Below, piece by piece: positions 3,509 through 45,353 of a DNA stretch of 45,353 bases. The notes beneath the pieces were generated by a model. That model saw nothing but the letters and a program-made list of their open reading frames with translations. It did not search any database and was not told the origin of the DNA. Position 1 is the first letter of the stretch; the number at the start of each line of letters is the position of its first letter. Where the stretch lies: the IMG/VR virus record IMGVR_UViG_3300036851_000092, positions 1 to 45,353 of that record; one strand, written 5' to 3'. The position numbers and the translations under genes are program-made. The stretch comes from a virus.

Positions 3509-3700
3509 TTAGTTGCTATTCACCTTATCATAATCTGTAGGGTAGCTTACATTAAAAGTGCCATCTGTCAGTACAACATTCCTTACTGCTGGTATACACT
3601 CTGCTATGAAAGCTGCAATCTTTTCTGCATCTTCGTAGTTGTTACATAGTACTATCCTGTCCTCATTACGATGTCCAGTGTATGTTATTTTATAGTCCAC
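3509..3700 (-). CDS. Hypothetical protein (63 aa) downstream of the reductase
   Basis: The frame is open from 3805, but that start would overlap the reductase by 116 bases. GTG at 3700 has AGGTGG five bases upstream and overlaps the reductase stop by 11 nt, so it is preferred; GTG at 3709 is the alternative. The product has alternating strands and helices (VDYKITYTGHRNEDRIVLC) and no recognised domain. It is co-directional and translationally coupled to the reductase. Confidence 0.55.
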   Translation of the reverse strand: MDYKITYTGHRNEDRIVLCNNYEDAEKIAAFIAECIPAVRNVVLTDGTFNVSYPTDYDKVNSN

Positions 3701-5321
3701 AGATTCCACCTTTGCAATTCTCCCCTTCGTGAAGGCTGCTGTTATTATCCTGTATGACAGTGGAAAAGTCAAGAGGTCGTACTGGTTGATTATCGTGTCT
3801 ACCATCTGGGTAGAATGTGATGCCTCGAAGCTGTGGTAGGTACTTAAGGAGGATAGGTGCTATTTGTTGTTCGATACCAGGTGTATACTGAGGTAAGTTC
3901 ACTGTGCTGCTGATGGCATTGTCTACGAACTGTTGACAGTATGCTTGAAAGGATATCCTCCGTTCGATGCCTTGTGTACTCTGTGACAATGTGTAAGCTG
4001 TATCTATGCTGTCTACTTCATACCCTTGTTGATACAACTTCATCACTACAGGATCAACAACCTTCTCCTGCCGTAAGCCATCATTGTATTGTGCAGTCTT
4101 GAGTGTGTTATATGTGCGTAAGTAAGCTGTATGGAAGATAGGTTCAATGCCTGGTGTAGTGTGACCACCTACTATGCTGATGGTACCAGTAGGTGCTATT
4201 GCTCTTGTGGCTATTGGCCTAGCTACAGATAGCTTGTTACTCCAATGGATAGCAGCATTGTCACAGTTTACTTGCCATGTCTTCATCCATTGTGGCAAGT
4301 CTTGGCTCATCTCAAAATATTCTGTGTAACCGTACGGTAATCCCCTTTGTACAAACCACTCAGCTACTCCCATCAGACCTAACCCTATCCTCCTGTTCTT
4401 AGCTTTCACTTGTGCTACTTTGCTGTGTGGTGTATCGGTGTAGAGCGTATTGCATAGTAGGAATAGTATGGCAAGATTAGTGACATCTGCTAGTTCACTT
4501 AAGCTGTCAATGGCTGCAAAGTTGATGCTACCAAGACAGCAACTGTCACAATCATCTGCTGATATTATCTCTGTGCAAGCGTTCCTTAATATCTGATCAT
4601 CATTATCAAACTGGAAACCTGGATCACCCCATTGACAAGCATGTTGTAACGTGGTAGTAAATGTATCATCTGCTATTCTATGATTGTGTAAGTTACTCTT
4701 TTGTGCTATAGCATCCTGCCATAAGTTGTCAAACCTTACACTTGTATTTGTATGCTGTAAGCTGTCATTACCATTCTTTAACTTAATGAATTCTGCGATG
4801 TCTGCATGATCCCATGCTAAGCTAGCATAAATAGCACCCCGCCTTTCACCACCTTGTCGAGCTGCTGCACCTATGCTGTTAATCATGTGCACTAGTGGTA
4901 TAGGTCCACTGCTTATACCACCACTTCTTGCTAGCTGACTACCATATGGTCTCAGTGCAGAATAGTCAACACCAACACCTCCACCTGACATGAACATCAT
5001 AGTTGCTTTGTATGCTAAGTCAGCCCAACCTTCCCGTGTATCTTCAGCTTGCAAGCAGTAACAGTTATCCGTTTGATGATATGGCCTCCCTGCTTGTGAT
5101 AATATCCTCCCCCCTGGTATAAACTTCCTCTGTGTAATCATCTCACCAATATCTAGCACAATATTCTTTGGTAAGCTACCATTCACTTGTCCTACAACAT
5201 TGTGCACTACTCTGTGTGCAATATCCTCCCATGTTTCTTTCCTCCCTTGTACAGTGTGACTATATCGTAAGTGCATGATATTCTCTGCATAATCTGTAAA
5301 GGAAGGTAAGCTTGCTGTCAT
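3690..5321 (-). CDS. nrdJ: Adenosylcobalamin-dependent (class II) ribonucleotide reductase
   Basis: A 543-residue reductase large chain, making deoxyribonucleotides from ribonucleotides with a cobalamin-generated thiyl radical. Visible elements are the N-terminal substrate-loop cysteines (NCYCL, 87-89), the segment MMFMSGGGVGVDYSALRP (108-124), the catalytic NACTE (N247, C249, E251), cysteines C258/C261/C262 that include the second active-site Cys, the ATRAIAPTGTIS phosphate-binding region, and the C-terminal redox pair C536-x4-C541. No ATP-cone is seen and no small (R2) subunit gene is nearby, which fits class II. It is shorter than the roughly 700-residue class II enzymes. ATG at 5321 follows AAAGGA. 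It is unusually placed in the fibre/lysis block rather than with replication genes. Confidence 0.92.
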   Translation of the reverse strand: MTASLPSFTDYAENIMHLRYSHTVQGRKETWEDIAHRVVHNVVGQVNGSLPKNIVLDIGEMITQRKFIPGGRILSQAGRPYHQTDNCYCLQAEDTREGWADLAYKATMMFMSGGGVGVDYSALRPYGSQLARSGGISSGPIPLVHMINSIGAAARQGGERRGAIYASLAWDHADIAEFIKLKNGNDSLQHTNTSVRFDNLWQDAIAQKSNLHNHRIADDTFTTTLQHACQWGDPGFQFDNDDQILRNACTEIISADDCDSCCLGSINFAAIDSLSELADVTNLAILFLLCNTLYTDTPHSKVAQVKAKNRRIGLGLMGVAEWFVQRGLPYGYTEYFEMSQDLPQWMKTWQVNCDNAAIHWSNKLSVARPIATRAIAPTGTISIVGGHTTPGIEPIFHTAYLRTYNTLKTAQYNDGLRQEKVVDPVVMKLYQQGYEVDSIDTAYTLSQSTQGIERRISFQAYCQQFVDNAISSTVNLPQYTPGIEQQIAPILLKYLPQLRGITFYPDGRHDNQPVRPLDFSTVIQDNNSSLHEGENCKGGICGL

Positions 5322-5340
5322 GAGAGGTATCCTTTGTTAC

Positions 5341-5679
5341 TTATTTGTGTTGCTGTTGTAAAGTGTACCATGCTCTGTGTAACTTTGCACTATCACCATA
5401 GTACACATGTTTCACTAACCAATTATACAGCGCCTTGCCTTTCTCTTCTGGGATACCCTCACTACTAACACAAGCTAACACCATTGCTTGTAGCAGTGCT
5501 TCACTAATGCACACTTGTTGTAGCTGTCTAACCCATCTCCTTTTAATAACTGCTAAGCTATGCTTTCCTTTGCGTGGTAACTGCTGCTGCCACATATACC
5601 CACCAGGAGCATGCCCCACTTGTGTGAGCAAGTTGTCAACCATTTTCACCACAGTGCGTTGATACGGTGTGAGCTGCAT
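5341..5679 (-). CDS. Hypothetical protein (112 aa), first gene of the leftward block
   Basis: A basic, helical product with many Gln, Lys and Arg residues and no recognised family. ATG at 5679 is closely preceded by AAGGAT. It is the promoter-proximal gene of the minus block that continues into the reductase 19 bases later. A role in DNA or RNA binding is possible from composition only. Confidence 0.6.
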   Translation of the reverse strand: MQLTPYQRTVVKMVDNLLTQVGHAPGGYMWQQQLPRKGKHSLAVIKRRWVRQLQQVCISEALLQAMVLACVSSEGIPEEKGKALYNWLVKHVYYGDSAKLHRAWYTLQQQHK

Positions 5680-6068
5680 ATCCTTGACGATACATTGCTA
5701 TGTACATTTCGTCAAATAGATATTTCTTATAACATAGCATGGTCTCATAGATTTTATCTATATTATCTGGTGGGTAGTCCTTTGTTGAGAGAAAAGGACC
5801 GCACCGCGAGGCTGCTCATACTTGGTGAGAGTGGGCTACTTAGTTCATTTAGTCCTGAATGGTACCGTAGTTTGTTAAAAATTAGCATGCAGGTGGTACT
5901 TTACAAATGCTCTCACGGGTGGTATATTGGAGCGTAGCGGCCTAACCTCTCAACTATAAGACCTAAGAATTAAATAAATAATAAAATAATAGTATTGTAT
6001 ATAGTATTAGGTTTTGTAGTTAGGGTTAGGAGGTGTGGAACCTAGGGGAAGAAGGAGGTATAGTACAG
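5680..6068. promoter_or_regulatory. Divergent intergenic region between leftward and structural blocks
   Basis: A 389-bp region between oppositely transcribed genes, so it should hold promoters for both. On the minus strand, TTGACG (rc of about 5709-5714), a 17-base spacer and TATCGT lie just before the first gene; the match is moderate. The plus-strand side has a very AT-rich stretch at 5970-6010. At 5777-5799 GTCCTTT and AAAGGAC form a perfect 7-bp stem with a 9-base loop. A plus-strand open frame runs 5611-5937 but has no SD and was not called. Confidence 0.5.
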
Positions 6069-29776: not shown

Positions 29777-29974
29777 TTACAGTCCCTCAATGTTAACATA
29801 GGTCAATGATTCAAGGATAGCTGATGGGTATTCTCTTACTAATAACGTTACCTCAGGATCACTTATTAAGCAGACTTCTGTGTGATCTTTTACACGTACT
29901 ATAAAGCTAATGTCTTCAACATTAACTAACACTTCCATACGTGTTTCATAGTCTGTACACTTGGCAAATTGCAT
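29777..29974 (-). CDS. Small protein (65 aa) coupled to polymerase C-part
   Basis: ATG at 29974 shares one base with the polymerase stop (TAATG). The product is strand-rich and acidic (EVLVNVEDISFIVRVKDHTE) and soluble. No recognised family. Its tight coupling suggests co-expression with the polymerase; a direct interaction is speculation. Confidence 0.52.
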   Translation of the reverse strand: MQFAKCTDYETRMEVLVNVEDISFIVRVKDHTEVCLISDPEVTLLVREYPSAILESLTYVNIEGL

Positions 29975-31041
29975 TATGCTATAACCTTTATCCCAGCTGT
30001 TAGTAGTATAGATCGCCCTTGATAGCTTATCTCTCTTTCAATAACCTGTCTCAGTTCATTTATGGTTGGTACATTATCCTTCTTGATACAAATCTTATCT
30101 CCATCATGTGCGTTTTGAACGATGCGTATAGAGTCACCTAGCATATCTTCAAGCATGATGAGGGTTATATTGTTGTAATCACTCACTGTGCCACTAATCA
30201 TGTGACTAAAGCCTTCATGGCCTGTTTTCTTGCTGCTGTCATAGAATTGTCTACGACCACCATACAGTGTCCTAGCTACCTTTGTAAGTTGAATGTGCTT
30301 CATGATGGCTAGCTTAGTAGCCCATGCATCACCTTTGCTAGCTATGTAGCGCTTGGCTAGGTCTGCTAGGTGCTGTCTACTGACACCGTATTGTTCAATA
30401 GCTGGTATAGTGTACACAAAGCGCCAAGTGTCTGTGTACTTGGAGCCATGGTTGAAGTTCTTAGCTAGTACTCGTTGTTTGGTGTCTTTGCCTTGCCAGT
30501 TGTACTTTGATCTCCAACTGGTATCCACTTCTGACTGGTGCGGATTTCTAAGGTCTTGAGGCATGTCATAACCAAAGATACTACAGCAGGTGATTGTGTG
30601 TAAGTCAAACCCTTGTTTATGTGCTTCAATAGCTTCTCTGTCATCCACAATAATATCATGTATCCTCCCTTCAATATTATCATGATCCCATGTTATTAAC
30701 ACTTCATCACTGTCTGCAAGCAGTATATCTCTCACACTCCAACAAACATCAGTCCACTCATGTTCCCCTCTGATGCAGTTGGTGTTGATGCAAGCTCTTG
30801 GCCAGTTAGTTATTGGTGGGTCAAAGGTTGACCATCTGAAGGATGCTTGTGTAGGTAAATGACGAGGGTATATTCTGTTAATGTTGACTAACTTATTGAT
30901 GTAGCCTGTGAGTAGCTTAGCATCTTCACTGTATTGTAGGCGTAGCTGGGCTAACTGTTTAGCTACACTGCTGATGTGTTTGCTACTTTGTAGCTTTCTT
31001 AGTGTATCACGAGTGAGATTTTGTGCTGCTTTGATAGCCAC
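29974..31041 (-). CDS. Family A DNA polymerase, palm/fingers polypeptide (split C-part)
   Basis: A 355-residue polymerase core. Motif A is WDHDNIEGR (D119, E124), matching DYSQIELR. Motif B is RVLAKNFNHG (R190, K194), with His198 where E. coli Pol I has Phe762. Motif C is AHDGD (H312, D313), where most enzymes have HDE. The N-terminus (about 10-80) corresponds to the region just after the thumb, including IYPRHLPTQASFRWSTFDPP, the HTxFxxxxTxTGR segment. GTG at 31041 is preceded by AGAGGA. The missing exonuclease and thumb are encoded by the gene at 31259-32680, so the polymerase is split. Confidence 0.85.
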   Translation of the reverse strand: MAIKAAQNLTRDTLRKLQSSKHISSVAKQLAQLRLQYSEDAKLLTGYINKLVNINRIYPRHLPTQASFRWSTFDPPITNWPRACINTNCIRGEHEWTDVCWSVRDILLADSDEVLITWDHDNIEGRIHDIIVDDREAIEAHKQGFDLHTITCCSIFGYDMPQDLRNPHQSEVDTSWRSKYNWQGKDTKQRVLAKNFNHGSKYTDTWRFVYTIPAIEQYGVSRQHLADLAKRYIASKGDAWATKLAIMKHIQLTKVARTLYGGRRQFYDSSKKTGHEGFSHMISGTVSDYNNITLIMLEDMLGDSIRIVQNAHDGDKICIKKDNVPTINELRQVIEREISYQGRSILLTAGIKVIA

Positions 31042-31044
31042 AAC

Positions 31045-31266
31045 TTATCCTCTTAAGCTCATGCAGTATGTACACATACATTGTGGTAACTGTTGCTTTG
31101 TTGGTTTGTAGCTGCTATCGCTTTGTTTACAATCATGGCATAATCGTGCTAACGGATCATAAAGAGTAGCATTGTATAGCTCACGATCTTTATATTCACC
31201 ACACTTACTACATAACCACATTCTTGTTGTAGGCCTTTTACTATGCTTTGTTGGTTGCTCAGCCAT
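31045..31266 (-). CDS. Zinc-ribbon protein between the polymerase halves (73 aa)
   Basis: Cysteine pairs at CSKC, CHDC and CMCTYC suggest one or two zinc ribbons. The first, WLCSKCGEYKDRELYN with CHDCKQ 15 residues later, resembles ribbons attached to phage HNH endonucleases, but no HNH motif is present. Its ATG overlaps the exonuclease-part stop by eight bases (ATGGCTGA), and the polymerase C-part starts three bases after its TAA. It may be a remnant of an inserted mobile endonuclease or a subunit bridging the two polypeptides; both are inference. Confidence 0.65.
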   Translation of the reverse strand: MAEQPTKHSKRPTTRMWLCSKCGEYKDRELYNATLYDPLARLCHDCKQSDSSYKPTKQQLPQCMCTYCMSLRG

Positions 31267-32680
31267 ATATCTGCTCCATCATTTTCTTCCTACCGCCAAC
31301 ATTAAACTTATCATCACCTGTTAGCTGCCGTGCTTGTTGCTGATACTCTTGTAACCGTTGCTGCAGTATCCTCTGCACCTCTGTGAGTCTGCTAGTGTTC
31401 ACCTTAGCACCTGTTAACTGAGCTTTGTTAATAATGTTAATGAGTGGTAGACGGTATTGTTTATACACTTTCCAGCTTGTAGGGTCAGCCTTGAACTCAG
31501 GAATGAAGTGTGTACGCCACATATGCATAGGCTCATATGCATCAAGGGCACTGTACAACTGTGGACTGTCTGATGACAGATGCTTGTACCTGTTAAAAGC
31601 ACCATACATACTAGCTATGTAGTTCAGATTATGTGGTTCACCAGTCCAGAGAACACTGTGAGCTAGCATCATATCTTCAATATTCACTTGCGATATATCA
31701 ATAATGTTAGCAAGATATCGAATATCAGCAAGAGCATTCTGAATGAGCACTGTACTGCCAGAGCGTACAGGTATTCTGGAGTCAAATGACTCAACACAAT
31801 AAAGGTTATAATCTGTATCACAGAGGCTCCACCTTGTGAGTTCATTAGTATCTGGTATGTACTCAGTGTCAAAGGCTGCATAGTGTGGCCATGCTGCTGG
31901 TGGAGTGGTACTCCATGTTGGTAGTGGTTGTGGCCACTGCTTAGCTAACAGCCTCTTAACCTTGTAGAAGTCTTGCAAGGTTGCATGCATGAAGCGTTTG
32001 TTGTCACCTTTGTACAAGGCTGCAATGTGCATAGTAAACAAGATAGGAATGCCAGAGGTAAGCCCATCATAAACACTAGTATTAATGGTACTGTAATGAT
32101 TAACATTATGAAGACTTGCAGCATACCCTCTCCAACTTTCCATAACTCCTTGTCTTTTACCATATTCGCTTTCTTCATTTTGTATACCTGTTAGGCTGAA
32201 CATAGCATGACGACCCATGGTTACTATCAGCTGAGTGCTATCAGGTATCTGTAAGTATGCATCTCTACAATGTTTGAGTGCTTTCACTATGTCAGCATCA
32301 CTATGTTCAAGCTTCATTTTTGTTGTGATGGGAGGCAAGTCATCACTACGCATGTTTAAAGAGGCGCCTGGTCTACAGCGGATGGCATTGGCTACGCTAA
32401 CATCTGCTCTAGTTAACCCTGACAGTGGTAGATATTTGTTAGTAAAGTCAAGGCCAGTAGCACCTATGAGTGGCTGTGGTTGTACTTGTTGGTAGTCAGC
32501 AGTGTACTCACCATAGCCATGATAGTGCCTCTTGATAAGTAGCCTGCCAGCTTCTTCATCAGGTCCAGGATTCTGAGCGATAAAGAGTACTTTGCTACCC
32601 TGCACAATATGGTCAGGTGTGAAGTACTGTCCATGCTGGTAGAACGGGCATCCAACGCATTTACTAGGCTTAGTTATCAT
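31259..32680 (-). CDS. Uracil-DNA glycosylase / 3'-5' exonuclease / thumb polypeptide (split polymerase N-part)
   Basis: A 473-residue fusion. Residues 1-220 are a family-4-like uracil-DNA glycosylase: IAQNPGPDEEAG (motif 1 region), and four cysteines C8, C11, C102 (AIRCRPG) and C138 spaced like its [4Fe-4S] ligands. Residues about 265-390 are a DEDDy exonuclease: FDTEY (D271, E273), IQNALADI (N315, D319) and YSALD (Y376, D380). The rest is the polymerase thumb, ending FNVGGRKKMMEQIYG, where Pol I continues into the palm. ATG at 32680 is chosen because the longer frame from 32743 overlaps the upstream gene. UDG in a replicase may remove uracil or tether to uracil-bearing DNA, which is inference. 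Confidence 0.82.
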   Translation of the reverse strand: MITKPSKCVGCPFYQHGQYFTPDHIVQGSKVLFIAQNPGPDEEAGRLLIKRHYHGYGEYTADYQQVQPQPLIGATGLDFTNKYLPLSGLTRADVSVANAIRCRPGASLNMRSDDLPPITTKMKLEHSDADIVKALKHCRDAYLQIPDSTQLIVTMGRHAMFSLTGIQNEESEYGKRQGVMESWRGYAASLHNVNHYSTINTSVYDGLTSGIPILFTMHIAALYKGDNKRFMHATLQDFYKVKRLLAKQWPQPLPTWSTTPPAAWPHYAAFDTEYIPDTNELTRWSLCDTDYNLYCVESFDSRIPVRSGSTVLIQNALADIRYLANIIDISQVNIEDMMLAHSVLWTGEPHNLNYIASMYGAFNRYKHLSSDSPQLYSALDAYEPMHMWRTHFIPEFKADPTSWKVYKQYRLPLINIINKAQLTGAKVNTSRLTEVQRILQQRLQEYQQQARQLTGDDKFNVGGRKKMMEQIYG

Positions 32681-32684
32681 ACTG

Positions 32685-32936
32685 CTACTCTTTCTCAGCC
32701 TTCTTAATAAACTCAGGATTAAAAGGGCACATGTCTCCATCACTTAAGAAGCTCTCTATATGGTCTCTTATTGCTTCAAATGCTGATTTCATCACTGTGA
32801 ATGGTACGTCATGTCTTGTATGTGCCCACATGGATACTTTATTATTGCTAAAGACATCAAACTCCAGTGAAAGAGTAGGTTGACCTTTCTTTTTGTACAT
32901 TATGGAGCGCTGTCTGTTGGTGAATACATTGCTCAT
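32685..32936 (-). CDS. Hypothetical protein (83 aa)
   Basis: ATG at 32936 has AAGGAG six bases upstream. The product is mixed alpha/beta with a helical C-terminal half (MKSAFEAIRDHIESFLSDGD) and no recognised domain. It ends four bases before the UDG-exonuclease gene, in the same operon. Confidence 0.58.
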   Translation of the reverse strand: MSNVFTNRQRSIMYKKKGQPTLSLEFDVFSNNKVSMWAHTRHDVPFTVMKSAFEAIRDHIESFLSDGDMCPFNPEFIKKAEKE

Positions 32937-32939
32937 TTG

Positions 32940-33122
32940 TTACTCCTTACTTTGTTGTACTTTTTTCTTACTTGTCTTTGTCTTTACAGTGTGCTGTTGT
33001 TGTGTAGGTACAGCAGATAACATTGTGAGTATACCCTCATGACGGTGGTAGATCATGGAAGTAGCACTGCTGACACTTTCTGTAGTGTCGCAGATGTTAC
33101 AGTAGAAGAGTTGTTCAGCCAT
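32940..33122 (-). CDS. Small zinc-finger-like protein (60 aa)
   Basis: An N-terminal CNIC and a downstream HRH pair suit one zinc finger, followed by a basic Lys/Gln/Ser/Thr-rich tail. A 15-base stretch encoding HEGILT (33023-33039 region, AGTATACCCTCATGA on the plus strand) recurs at 33499-33513 in the upstream intergenic region. DNA binding is possible. Function unknown. Confidence 0.52.
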   Translation of the reverse strand: MAEQLFYCNICDTTESVSSATSMIYHRHEGILTMLSAVPTQQQHTVKTKTSKKKVQQSKE

Positions 33123-33128
33123 ACTTAC

Positions 33129-33347
33129 TCAACCTCTCATGGTGTAAAAACTTGCTAATTCTCTATCTTCTTCTATCTCTATCTCCTGCATGTAGTCATA
33201 GATGTCTTCTACTTGTAGTGCCTGTTCCAGTTGCTCTTTGTGATTGTTTACTACATGTATTGTGAGCTTCTTGTAATTCACTTTACCTTTGCCAACAGGG
33301 CGTAGACACTTGTATGAGCAGTACTTACACTTTATGTACTTATTCAC
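33129..33347 (-). CDS. Small C2H2-type zinc-finger protein (72 aa)
   Basis: CKYC near the N-terminus and HVVNNH about 22 residues later give C2H2 spacing; the rest is an acidic helix. TTG at 33359 is in frame, but GTG at 33347 has GGAG six bases upstream and is preferred. It is the first gene below the structured intergenic element at 33370-33528, so that element may act in its mRNA leader. Confidence 0.55.
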   Translation of the reverse strand: MNKYIKCKYCSYKCLRPVGKGKVNYKKLTIHVVNNHKEQLEQALQVEDIYDYMQEIEIEEDRELASFYTMRG

Positions 33348-33369
33348 AGCTATCTCCAATAGCTAAGCA

Positions 33370-33528
33370 AGTACTCACCTCTCCACAGCTTGAATTGCAC
33401 AAGCTTTAAGCATGGTTATGTCTGCAAGATGAGAGTACAGGAAGGAGCCTTGCAGCATGCTGACACATCGTGGTGTACTAGTACACCAAACAATGCTAGT
33501 ATACCCTCATGAAGGAGAGGTGAGTACT
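33370..33528 (-). other. Nested inverted-repeat element (multi-branched RNA/DNA structure)
   Basis: The outer arms AGTACTCACCTCTCC (33370-33384) and GGAGAGGTGAGTACT (33514-33528) are perfect 15-bp complements. Inside are AGCTTG/CAAGCT (33388-33406), CTGCAAG/CTTGCAG (33422-33428, 33449-33455) and the perfect 18-bp palindrome TGGTGTACTAGTACACCA (33471-33488). Together they can fold as a closed stem with three hairpins. It lies in the 200-bp noncoding gap within the minus-strand replication block, so it may be a transcribed RNA element, a replication origin or a regulator-binding site. Confidence 0.65.
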
Positions 33529-33555
33529 GCTATTTAACTATCTGTTATTTACTAG

Positions 33556-33726
33556 TTATCTCTGCTGTTGTTCTAGAATATTCTCTGCTGTATCATCAGT
33601 CCATGCTTCATCGCAGATGTTGCACTGCCATACTGGTCCTATAATGCTATCCTTATCGCTGCCAATGTAGTCATTGAACACTGTTGCCTCATTCATTGCA
33701 CCACAGAAAGGACATGTGATATGCAT
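33556..33726 (-). CDS. Zinc-ribbon protein (56 aa)
   Basis: CPFCG near residue 5 and CNIC about 30 residues later form a classic zinc ribbon; the rest is acidic. ATG at 33726 has GAGG five bases upstream and directly follows the stop of the small gene at 33729-33869; the frame itself is open from 33750. Function unknown; such ribbons often bind nucleic acid or host polymerase. Confidence 0.6.
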   Translation of the reverse strand: MHITCPFCGAMNEATVFNDYIGSDKDSIIGPVWQCNICDEAWTDDTAENILEQQQR

Positions 33727-33728
33727 AG

Positions 33729-33869
33729 CTACCTCAAGTATTGTGTCCATGAATAGTCGAAGAGGTTATAGCACCAGTAGGTATGACCCATGTGTACAAC
33801 CGTTGGTGTTTTTGCCTTTATATAGCCTACTCTTGTCATGTAGCTTTCAAAAGCTCTCCAGTTGTACAT
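33729..33869 (-). CDS. Small aromatic-rich protein (46 aa)
   Basis: Read directly: ATG at 33869 has GAGG six bases upstream, three bases after the previous gene's TAA. The 46 codons start MYNWRAFESYMTRVGYIKAK and are rich in Tyr and Trp. The stop is followed two bases later by the zinc-ribbon ATG. The strong SD and coupling support a real gene. Function unknown. Confidence 0.6.
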   Translation of the reverse strand: MYNWRAFESYMTRVGYIKAKTPTVVHMGHTYWCYNLFDYSWTQYLR

Positions 33870-37462: not shown

Positions 37463-37506
37463 CTCAGTTGAACAGAGTAAACACTAACCAGGAAGGAGTA
37501 CAGACT

Positions 37507-37932
37507 ATGAGTCAGCATGAATATTGCCAATGTTGCGAAAGAAGTAATATAACACTGAAAGAAGTCGCCTACGTCGATAGTGACCATCAAAGAGAACTAC
37601 ATTCAGTATTGATGTGCAAAGATTGCCTAGTACAGGAAGAGGAACAAGGGAACACATATGTTGACATGGTTAATGAAGACCAGTCTGTAGTGAATTCCCA
37701 TGTGGTTAGTAATACTATCTGCAATCATTGTGGCATTGCACCTATCTGCTTTGCTAGTGCATTCTTCTGCACTATCTGTAAGGACAACATTGAACACTGG
37801 CTACTACAAACCAGGTGTGCTTGCTGCTTGGAGACACCAGTTGACCAGGATGGCGACTATTGTGATGACTGTGTAGAGGCTATTTGTGCAGCATTGGCAG
37901 AGCAGCAGTTGGCAGATGGAGGATTGTATTAA
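37507..37932 (+). CDS. Multi-zinc-ribbon protein (141 aa)
   Basis: Six CxxC pairs are visible: CQCC, CKDC, CNHC, CTIC, CACC and CDDC. They would form about three zinc ribbons in an otherwise acidic protein. ATG at 37507 has AAGGAG eight bases upstream; the frame is open from 37468 but this start is better. Its TAA shares one base with the next ATG. It may bind host transcription or DNA machinery, which is inference from the ribbons and early position. Confidence 0.7.
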   Translation: MSQHEYCQCCERSNITLKEVAYVDSDHQRELHSVLMCKDCLVQEEEQGNTYVDMVNEDQSVVNSHVVSNTICNHCGIAPICFASAFFCTICKDNIEHWLLQTRCACCLETPVDQDGDYCDDCVEAICAALAEQQLADGGLY

Positions 37933-44815: not shown

Positions 44816-45268
44816 TTATCCTACTCTGAACCATTTGTTAGCTACTGCGTTATATTGAAAGCGAGCAAATCCTGCAATACTGAGTGTACTTAGCGTACCT
44901 ACAATTGTACCACTCCCAATGGTCAATGCTGTAATAACTTGTGAACTACTCATAGTTACAATGTCACCATCTATTGGTGTCAATGGTAAGTTAACAGTCA
45001 ATGTAGCTAATGTCCCACTTGGGTTAATAAGCAATGTAGTATTCCTGCTACTTGTTACAGCAATCGTATCACCTGTAATTGGTGTCACATACTGTGTTGT
45101 GAGTGGTGCAAAGTAATCAGTGCTGGAGTTAGCTAATGTACCATCAACTTTTGCTATTTGTGCAAATGGTGTTAACGTAAACAAGAAGATGACAGCTATA
45201 GCAGATAGAGACATCAGATATAAGACAATGACAATATTAATTGTAACGCGAGATGTGTTCAGTTGCAT
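44816..45268 (-). CDS. Fibre-tip-like beta protein with N-terminal membrane/signal segment (150 aa)
   Basis: ATG at 45268 follows GGGGTGA and overlaps the fibre stop across the circular junction (ATGcaacTGA). Residues about 11-37 are hydrophobic and end in PFAQ. The rest shows the pattern GDTIAVTSSRNTTLLINPSG, then PIDGDIVTMSSSQ and FQYNAVANKWFRVG, common to small tail-tip or receptor-binding domains of phages. Translational coupling to the fibre suggests the two act together. The long frame to 45322 has a worse start. Confidence 0.65.
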   Translation of the reverse strand: MQLNTSRVTINIVIVLYLMSLSAIAVIFLFTLTPFAQIAKVDGTLANSSTDYFAPLTTQYVTPITGDTIAVTSSRNTTLLINPSGTLATLTVNLPLTPIDGDIVTMSSSQVITALTIGSGTIVGTLSTLSIAGFARFQYNAVANKWFRVG

Positions 45269-45353
45269 ACATTCACCCCATTCAACCTCTTCGCAAGAGC
45301 ACCTGTCCCAGAGCCAGCACAAGGGTTTGCAATGGTGCAGTCACTACAATACC
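45227..45353. repeat. Terminal direct repeat, right copy
   Basis: Identical to bases 1-127. It carries the start of the fibre-tip-like gene and the last codons of the fibre gene (the fibre stop recurs at 45259). The fibre fragment here is not a second gene. Confidence 0.93.

Follow-up and report, generated by a model that had tools for sequence, protein, structure and literature searches.

Family A DNA polymerase is the textbook single-chain polymerase. In the phage genome analyzed here, a stretch of 45,353 nucleotides (IMG/VR record IMGVR_UViG_3300036851_000092, referred to below as the window), the parts of such an enzyme and a UDG-like domain are spread over two genes with a small zinc-ribbon frame between them. 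This raises the question of whether the locus encodes a polymerase that works as two polypeptides, a chain that is joined after all, or two separate enzymes, and what part the ribbon plays.

Re-reading of the sequence agreed with the three frames, coordinates and overlaps described in an earlier note on this DNA. On the minus strand, a 473-aa gene (31259..32680, ATG at 32680), a 73-aa Cys-rich, zinc-ribbon-like frame (31045..31266, GGAG 7 nt ahead of its ATG) and a 355-aa gene (31041-29974, GTG start) follow each other head to tail. The ribbon overlaps the 473-aa gene by 8 nt, and the 355-aa palm gene begins 3 nt past the ribbon stop; ribbon and palm gene share a reading frame, with a single TAA between them. 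An alternative in-frame GTG at 32743 would extend the first protein to 494 aa.

Going by its identical direct terminal repeats of 127 bp (1-127 and 45227-45353), the window is probably a complete genome. Its other genes are of the tailed-phage type (terminase, head proteins, AAA proteins and a B12-dependent, class II ribonucleotide reductase at 3690-5321). A search across the window for family B polymerase (PolB) and PolIII alpha found neither, and the split family A pair was the only polymerase detectable in it. In principle, the phage could be replicated by a host polymerase instead. A 154-aa ORF on the plus strand (37468-37932), with 16 cysteines and six CxxC motifs, had no match in PHROG or Pfam.

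Domains of the two genes and position of the break

The 473-aa protein carries a UDG-like domain (residues 1-245), a DEDDy 3'-5' exonuclease (about 265-400) and a first thumb half with helices 413-423, 429-454 and 464-471 in the AF2 model (mean pLDDT 86.8); it ends with FNVGGRKKMMEQIYG. The earlier description of a family-4-like UDG with four iron-sulphur-type cysteines held: C8, C11, C102 and C138 are present and invariant in a 20-sequence alignment, and Foldseek placed 4zbx (family 4 UDG) and 1l9g at the top for this model, along with Pol I exonuclease/thumb. The Pfam UDG score of the window protein (22.9) was just under the cut-off of 24.3, while the L003 protein was over it. Canonical motif A of family 4 UDG is GEAPG. 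The phage domain shares the fold and the four Fe-S-type cysteines with family 4 UDG and UdgX, but differs from them in its invariant Q (AQNPG in the window, with Q36, P38, G39 and E42 invariant in the alignment) and in its fusion to a polymerase part; we regard it as a putative UDG. The exonuclease is complete, as had been claimed, since D271, E273, D319, Y376 and D380 (DxE ... D ... YxxxD) are all present and invariant in the same alignment.

The 355-aa protein begins with a second thumb half (residues 1-51; model helices 11-19 and 25-51), followed by palm and fingers with motif A (D119/E124), motif B (R190/K194/Y202) and motif C (H312-D313). D119, E124, R190, K194, H312 and D313 are invariant in a 24-sequence alignment, and Y202 is conserved in at least 90% of it. 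Pfam DNA_pol_A was matched at 44 bits, above the cut-off, and Foldseek matched the AF2 model (mean pLDDT 86.7) to Bst/Klenow/Taq thumb-palm-fingers (E ~1e-13), indicating a right-hand fold. Both proteins matched one PHROG polymerase family at adjoining positions (548-902 and 929-1195). Motif C is usually HDE in family A; residues 312-314 are HDG in the window and HDS or HDA in relatives, which lack the second carboxylate alike, and because the E is replaced by G, S or A throughout the family, split and single, catalysis may be atypical. Before motif A, the alignment revealed an insertion, C84-x4-C89-x4-H94-x5-C100 (30742..30792, minus strand), kept in that part of the split clade to which the window belongs, similar in L027 and missing from single-gene relatives. 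It likely gives the polymerase subunit a zinc site of its own. At palm residue 68, the window reads QASFRWS, whereas G precedes RWS in nearly all relatives.

Both halves are maintained. Beyond the invariant residues, codon position 3 in each varied about twice as much as positions 1 and 2, with pairwise differences to the window of 0.57-0.62 at the third, 0.29-0.35 at the first and 0.23-0.27 at the second position.

The second gene had been thought to resume at the palm/fingers. However, the second thumb half occupies its first ~50 residues, and the break lies inside the thumb. Alignment with single-gene relatives and E. coli Pol I mapped it to about Pol I residues 592 and 601 (Klenow chain position + 323), which is the thumb tip. 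In the AF2 models, the first chain contributes helices 429-454 and 464-471 to a single thumb, and the second chain adds helices 11-19 and 25-51. The deletion made by Minnick et al. in 1996 reportedly took out the Pol I thumb tip around residues 590-613. As summarized in the part of PMC10061031 that cites Minnick et al. 1996, Pol I with a truncated thumb was still active, with lowered processivity and fidelity.

Relatives and history of the split

Relatives were collected by scans of viral contigs, their gene architecture was read with HMMs, and near-identical contigs were counted as one lineage. The identical thumb-tip break was found in 20 distinct lineages (the window, L003, L004, L005, L006, L007, L009, L010, L014, L024, L026, L027, L029, L038, L046, L056, L059, L061, L062 and L063), metagenomic contigs throughout with no cultured member, whose palm identity to the window goes down to about 27%. 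A break shared this widely is not chance. Among related phages we also found single-gene polymerases lacking the ribbon, for which the earlier note had suggested a search (e.g., MW202742, L011 and L015). The UDG is fused in six of the single-gene relatives: L002 (Podoviridae sp. ctVRi840, MW202742), L011, L015, L033, L035 and L037. These have the domain order and motifs of the window at about 25-30% identity, but consist of one unbroken gene with an intact thumb loop and about 20 more residues in the thumb. Fission of the UDG part also appears to be recurrent in the family, as L012, L013, L019 and L040 have the UDG as its own gene, which either adjoins the unsplit exonuclease-polymerase gene or lies several kb away from it. 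L041-L043 have a single-gene polymerase and no UDG match nearby. In L061 (4398-5735), the UDG domain itself lies in two frames (4398-4685 and 4689-5735), which may stem from another break or from a frame error.

In a maximum-likelihood tree of 28 rows (15 split), the split sequences formed one clade (support 100/99). A 36-row tree with all 20 split lineages and three outgroup polymerases again gave 100/99 for this clade, with the single-gene relatives and the outgroups outside; the outgroup branches are long, making the root less certain than the split clade itself. Since the same clade was recovered in the 28-row set by the exonuclease part alone (100) and by the palm part alone (99), the halves were inherited together. 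Polymerases outside the clade are unsplit, except for the differently and independently split one of phage MEP401 (see below). The simplest history is therefore a single fission long ago. No reversal to a single gene was seen among the split lineages. The last palm-alignment scan still added five lineages, all of them split, and further split lineages may therefore exist; a search with the N-half alignment gave nothing new, and a scan of host genomes found no relatives.

We propose that the pair is very probably a two-subunit family A DNA polymerase arisen by gene fission. A single ancestral gene for UDG, exonuclease and PolA would have been cut once, at the flexible thumb tip, leaving UDG, exonuclease and the up-going thumb helices to the first gene and the down-going thumb helices, palm and fingers to the next. 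The two genes start separately, each behind a ribosome-binding site of its own (e.g., AGAGGA ahead of the GTG at 31041 and GGAGG ahead of the L029 palm start), and their location in one gene row would make joint production possible. Because each chain holds half of one thumb, with two long helices side by side, the chains most likely reassemble into an ordinary Pol I fold, long thumb helix packing on long thumb helix. At the sequence level, the earlier claim of a polymerase working as two polypeptides thus has strong support from an ancient fission retained by each of the 20 split lineages, the conservation of both halves and the lack of a detected intron.

Both halves consist of folded domains, which would also suit genes acting separately: the UDG-exonuclease would serve in repair or clean-up, and the palm half would polymerize by itself despite having half a thumb. 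We consider this improbable, because a single thumb subdomain is shared out between the halves, and in 20 lineages the two conserved, separately started genes are neighbors in unchanged order.

The gap between the halves and the zinc ribbon

Once the gene had been opened, the junction would have become an ordinary intergenic spot that small phage genes, the zinc ribbon among them, enter and leave without being part of the enzyme. Indeed, the gap ranges from 0 to about 1,000 nt across lineages, and the small genes inside are mostly unrelated. Apart from the ribbon in the window, they encode 80+74 aa in L003, 70+65+64 in L004, 61+75+59+81 in L007, 47+102 in L005, 52 in L010, 68 in L009, 86 in L061 and 71+92+151 in L027, where the 151-aa product is a nucleoside deoxyribosyltransferase; the gap of about 1 kb in L063 holds several ORFs, and the sisters L062 and L063 have one Cys-rich gap gene in common. 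The halves abut or overlap in 6/20 split lineages, with geneless gaps of 17 nt (L006), -1 (L014), -56 (L026), -1 (L029), 2 (L046) and -38 (L056). Homologues of gap genes occur outside the gap: that of the 70-aa L004 gene lies directly after the L007 palm gene (E 5e-20), and in L012 and L013, homologues of an L027 gene lie at a distance from the polymerase. The gap genes thus behave as ordinary small phage genes.

The ribbon itself was found in the gap of the window alone, and the three nearest relatives carry other genes there. Searches of viral contigs and phage records yielded no homologue; among the loci, its one relative is weak (E 0.005) and belongs to a sister genome, where it sits some 4 kb upstream of the polymerase. 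We conclude that the ribbon appears to be the current occupant of the gap, one of many small genes coming and going. The earlier suggestion that the ribbon gene split the polymerase was not supported: relatives with the same break have other genes or none in the gap, and therefore the split came before the ribbon. Upstream of the polymerase (window 32940-33750, minus strand) are several more small zinc-finger-like (CxxC) ORFs, so such proteins are common around it.

Homing endonucleases and introns are known to insert into phage genes, polymerases included, and such an element might have split polA and left the ribbon behind. The ribbon has weak PHROG matches to HNH/endonuclease VII families (E 0.006-0.018), and an ancestral first cut could have been made by an endonuclease since lost. 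We nevertheless regard this origin as very improbable. The split is older than the ribbon, and the ribbon matches (E 0.006-0.02 at the widest) cover the zinc-ribbon portion only, a kind of element common in these families. Apart from this weak similarity, no endonuclease family was found among the gap genes scanned, and Rfam scans of the window and nine relatives detected no group I/II intron or other RNA element. The mobile-endonuclease remnant of the earlier note thus comes down to generic zinc-ribbon similarity, with the catalytic part absent.

The position of the ribbon, exactly between the halves, overlapping the first and almost touching the second, would also suit a third subunit that bridges them, and small Cys-rich ORFs recur in the gaps of L004, L007, L010, L062 and L063. 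However, the gap showed no significant excess of ribbon-type ORFs (3/18 versus 10/124 nearby small ORFs, p=0.22, with a crude ORF caller). With no homologue in the gaps of relatives, other genes in the three closest and none in six lineages, a bridging role is highly improbable.

That the ribbon and palm frames of the window phage are set apart by one in-frame TAA might point to halves joined after all as one chain, by intron splicing, an intein, ribosomal bypass or stop readthrough. This can hardly be the case, as gap content changes between almost all lineages, the genes overlap and start separately in several of them, the starts have ribosome-binding sites, and the frame relation is not conserved; since the halves abut or overlap in six lineages, there is no room for an intron in these. 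Frame errors from sequencing or assembly are a negligible explanation, given that 20 lineages, drawn from many metagenomes, have the same break and conserve the gene ends and starts at it.

Known split polymerases and implications

In the OM43 phages MEP401/MEP402 (Zobellviridae; PMC10580990, OP830906), PolA was described as encoded by two genes that flank a small ORF, and the authors suspected an intron. The MEP401 PolA has no UDG domain and is broken just before motif A (...LFLSRYGE, stop / MILNADAKALEW), in contrast to the thumb tip in the window clade, and it lies outside the split clade; its split is thus an independent fission. In L044 (5482-8101), a related polymerase is broken at the end of the thumb, between thumb and palm (...HYVLPLVKGDSNDG..., stop / MATIKTLTELKARL...), with a good ribosome-binding site, and this probably represents another independent fission. 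Split family A polymerases therefore show three different break points (the thumb tip; thumb to palm in L044; before motif A in MEP401). The Klenow fragment of E. coli DNA polymerase I, Taq and Bst share the exonuclease, thumb, palm and fingers fold with the phage pair, but they are one chain, lack UDG and have HDE in motif C. In the literature searched, which included few subscription papers, we found no report of a split PolA fused to UDG. Split family A polymerases were thus already known, while the thumb-tip, UDG-fused clade is new as far as the literature searched shows.

The thumb of T7 polymerase docks thioredoxin. By analogy, the open thumb tip could be under selection because it does what a closed thumb cannot, for example docking a processivity or regulatory partner, or allowing on-off exchange of the UDG-exonuclease subunit. 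We consider such selection unlikely; if it were true, these phages would have a family A replicase made of two subunits, from which the proofreading and uracil-sensing arm could be detached.

Under the preferred reading, a two-subunit enzyme arisen by fission, both the assembly of the halves and the removability of the UDG/exonuclease half are testable. For annotation, "interrupted" polymerase genes that hold a small ORF need not be introns or broken genes. A whole old clade seemingly replicates with a cut thumb tip, which shows where the family A fold tolerates breakage and offers a natural design for split polymerases.
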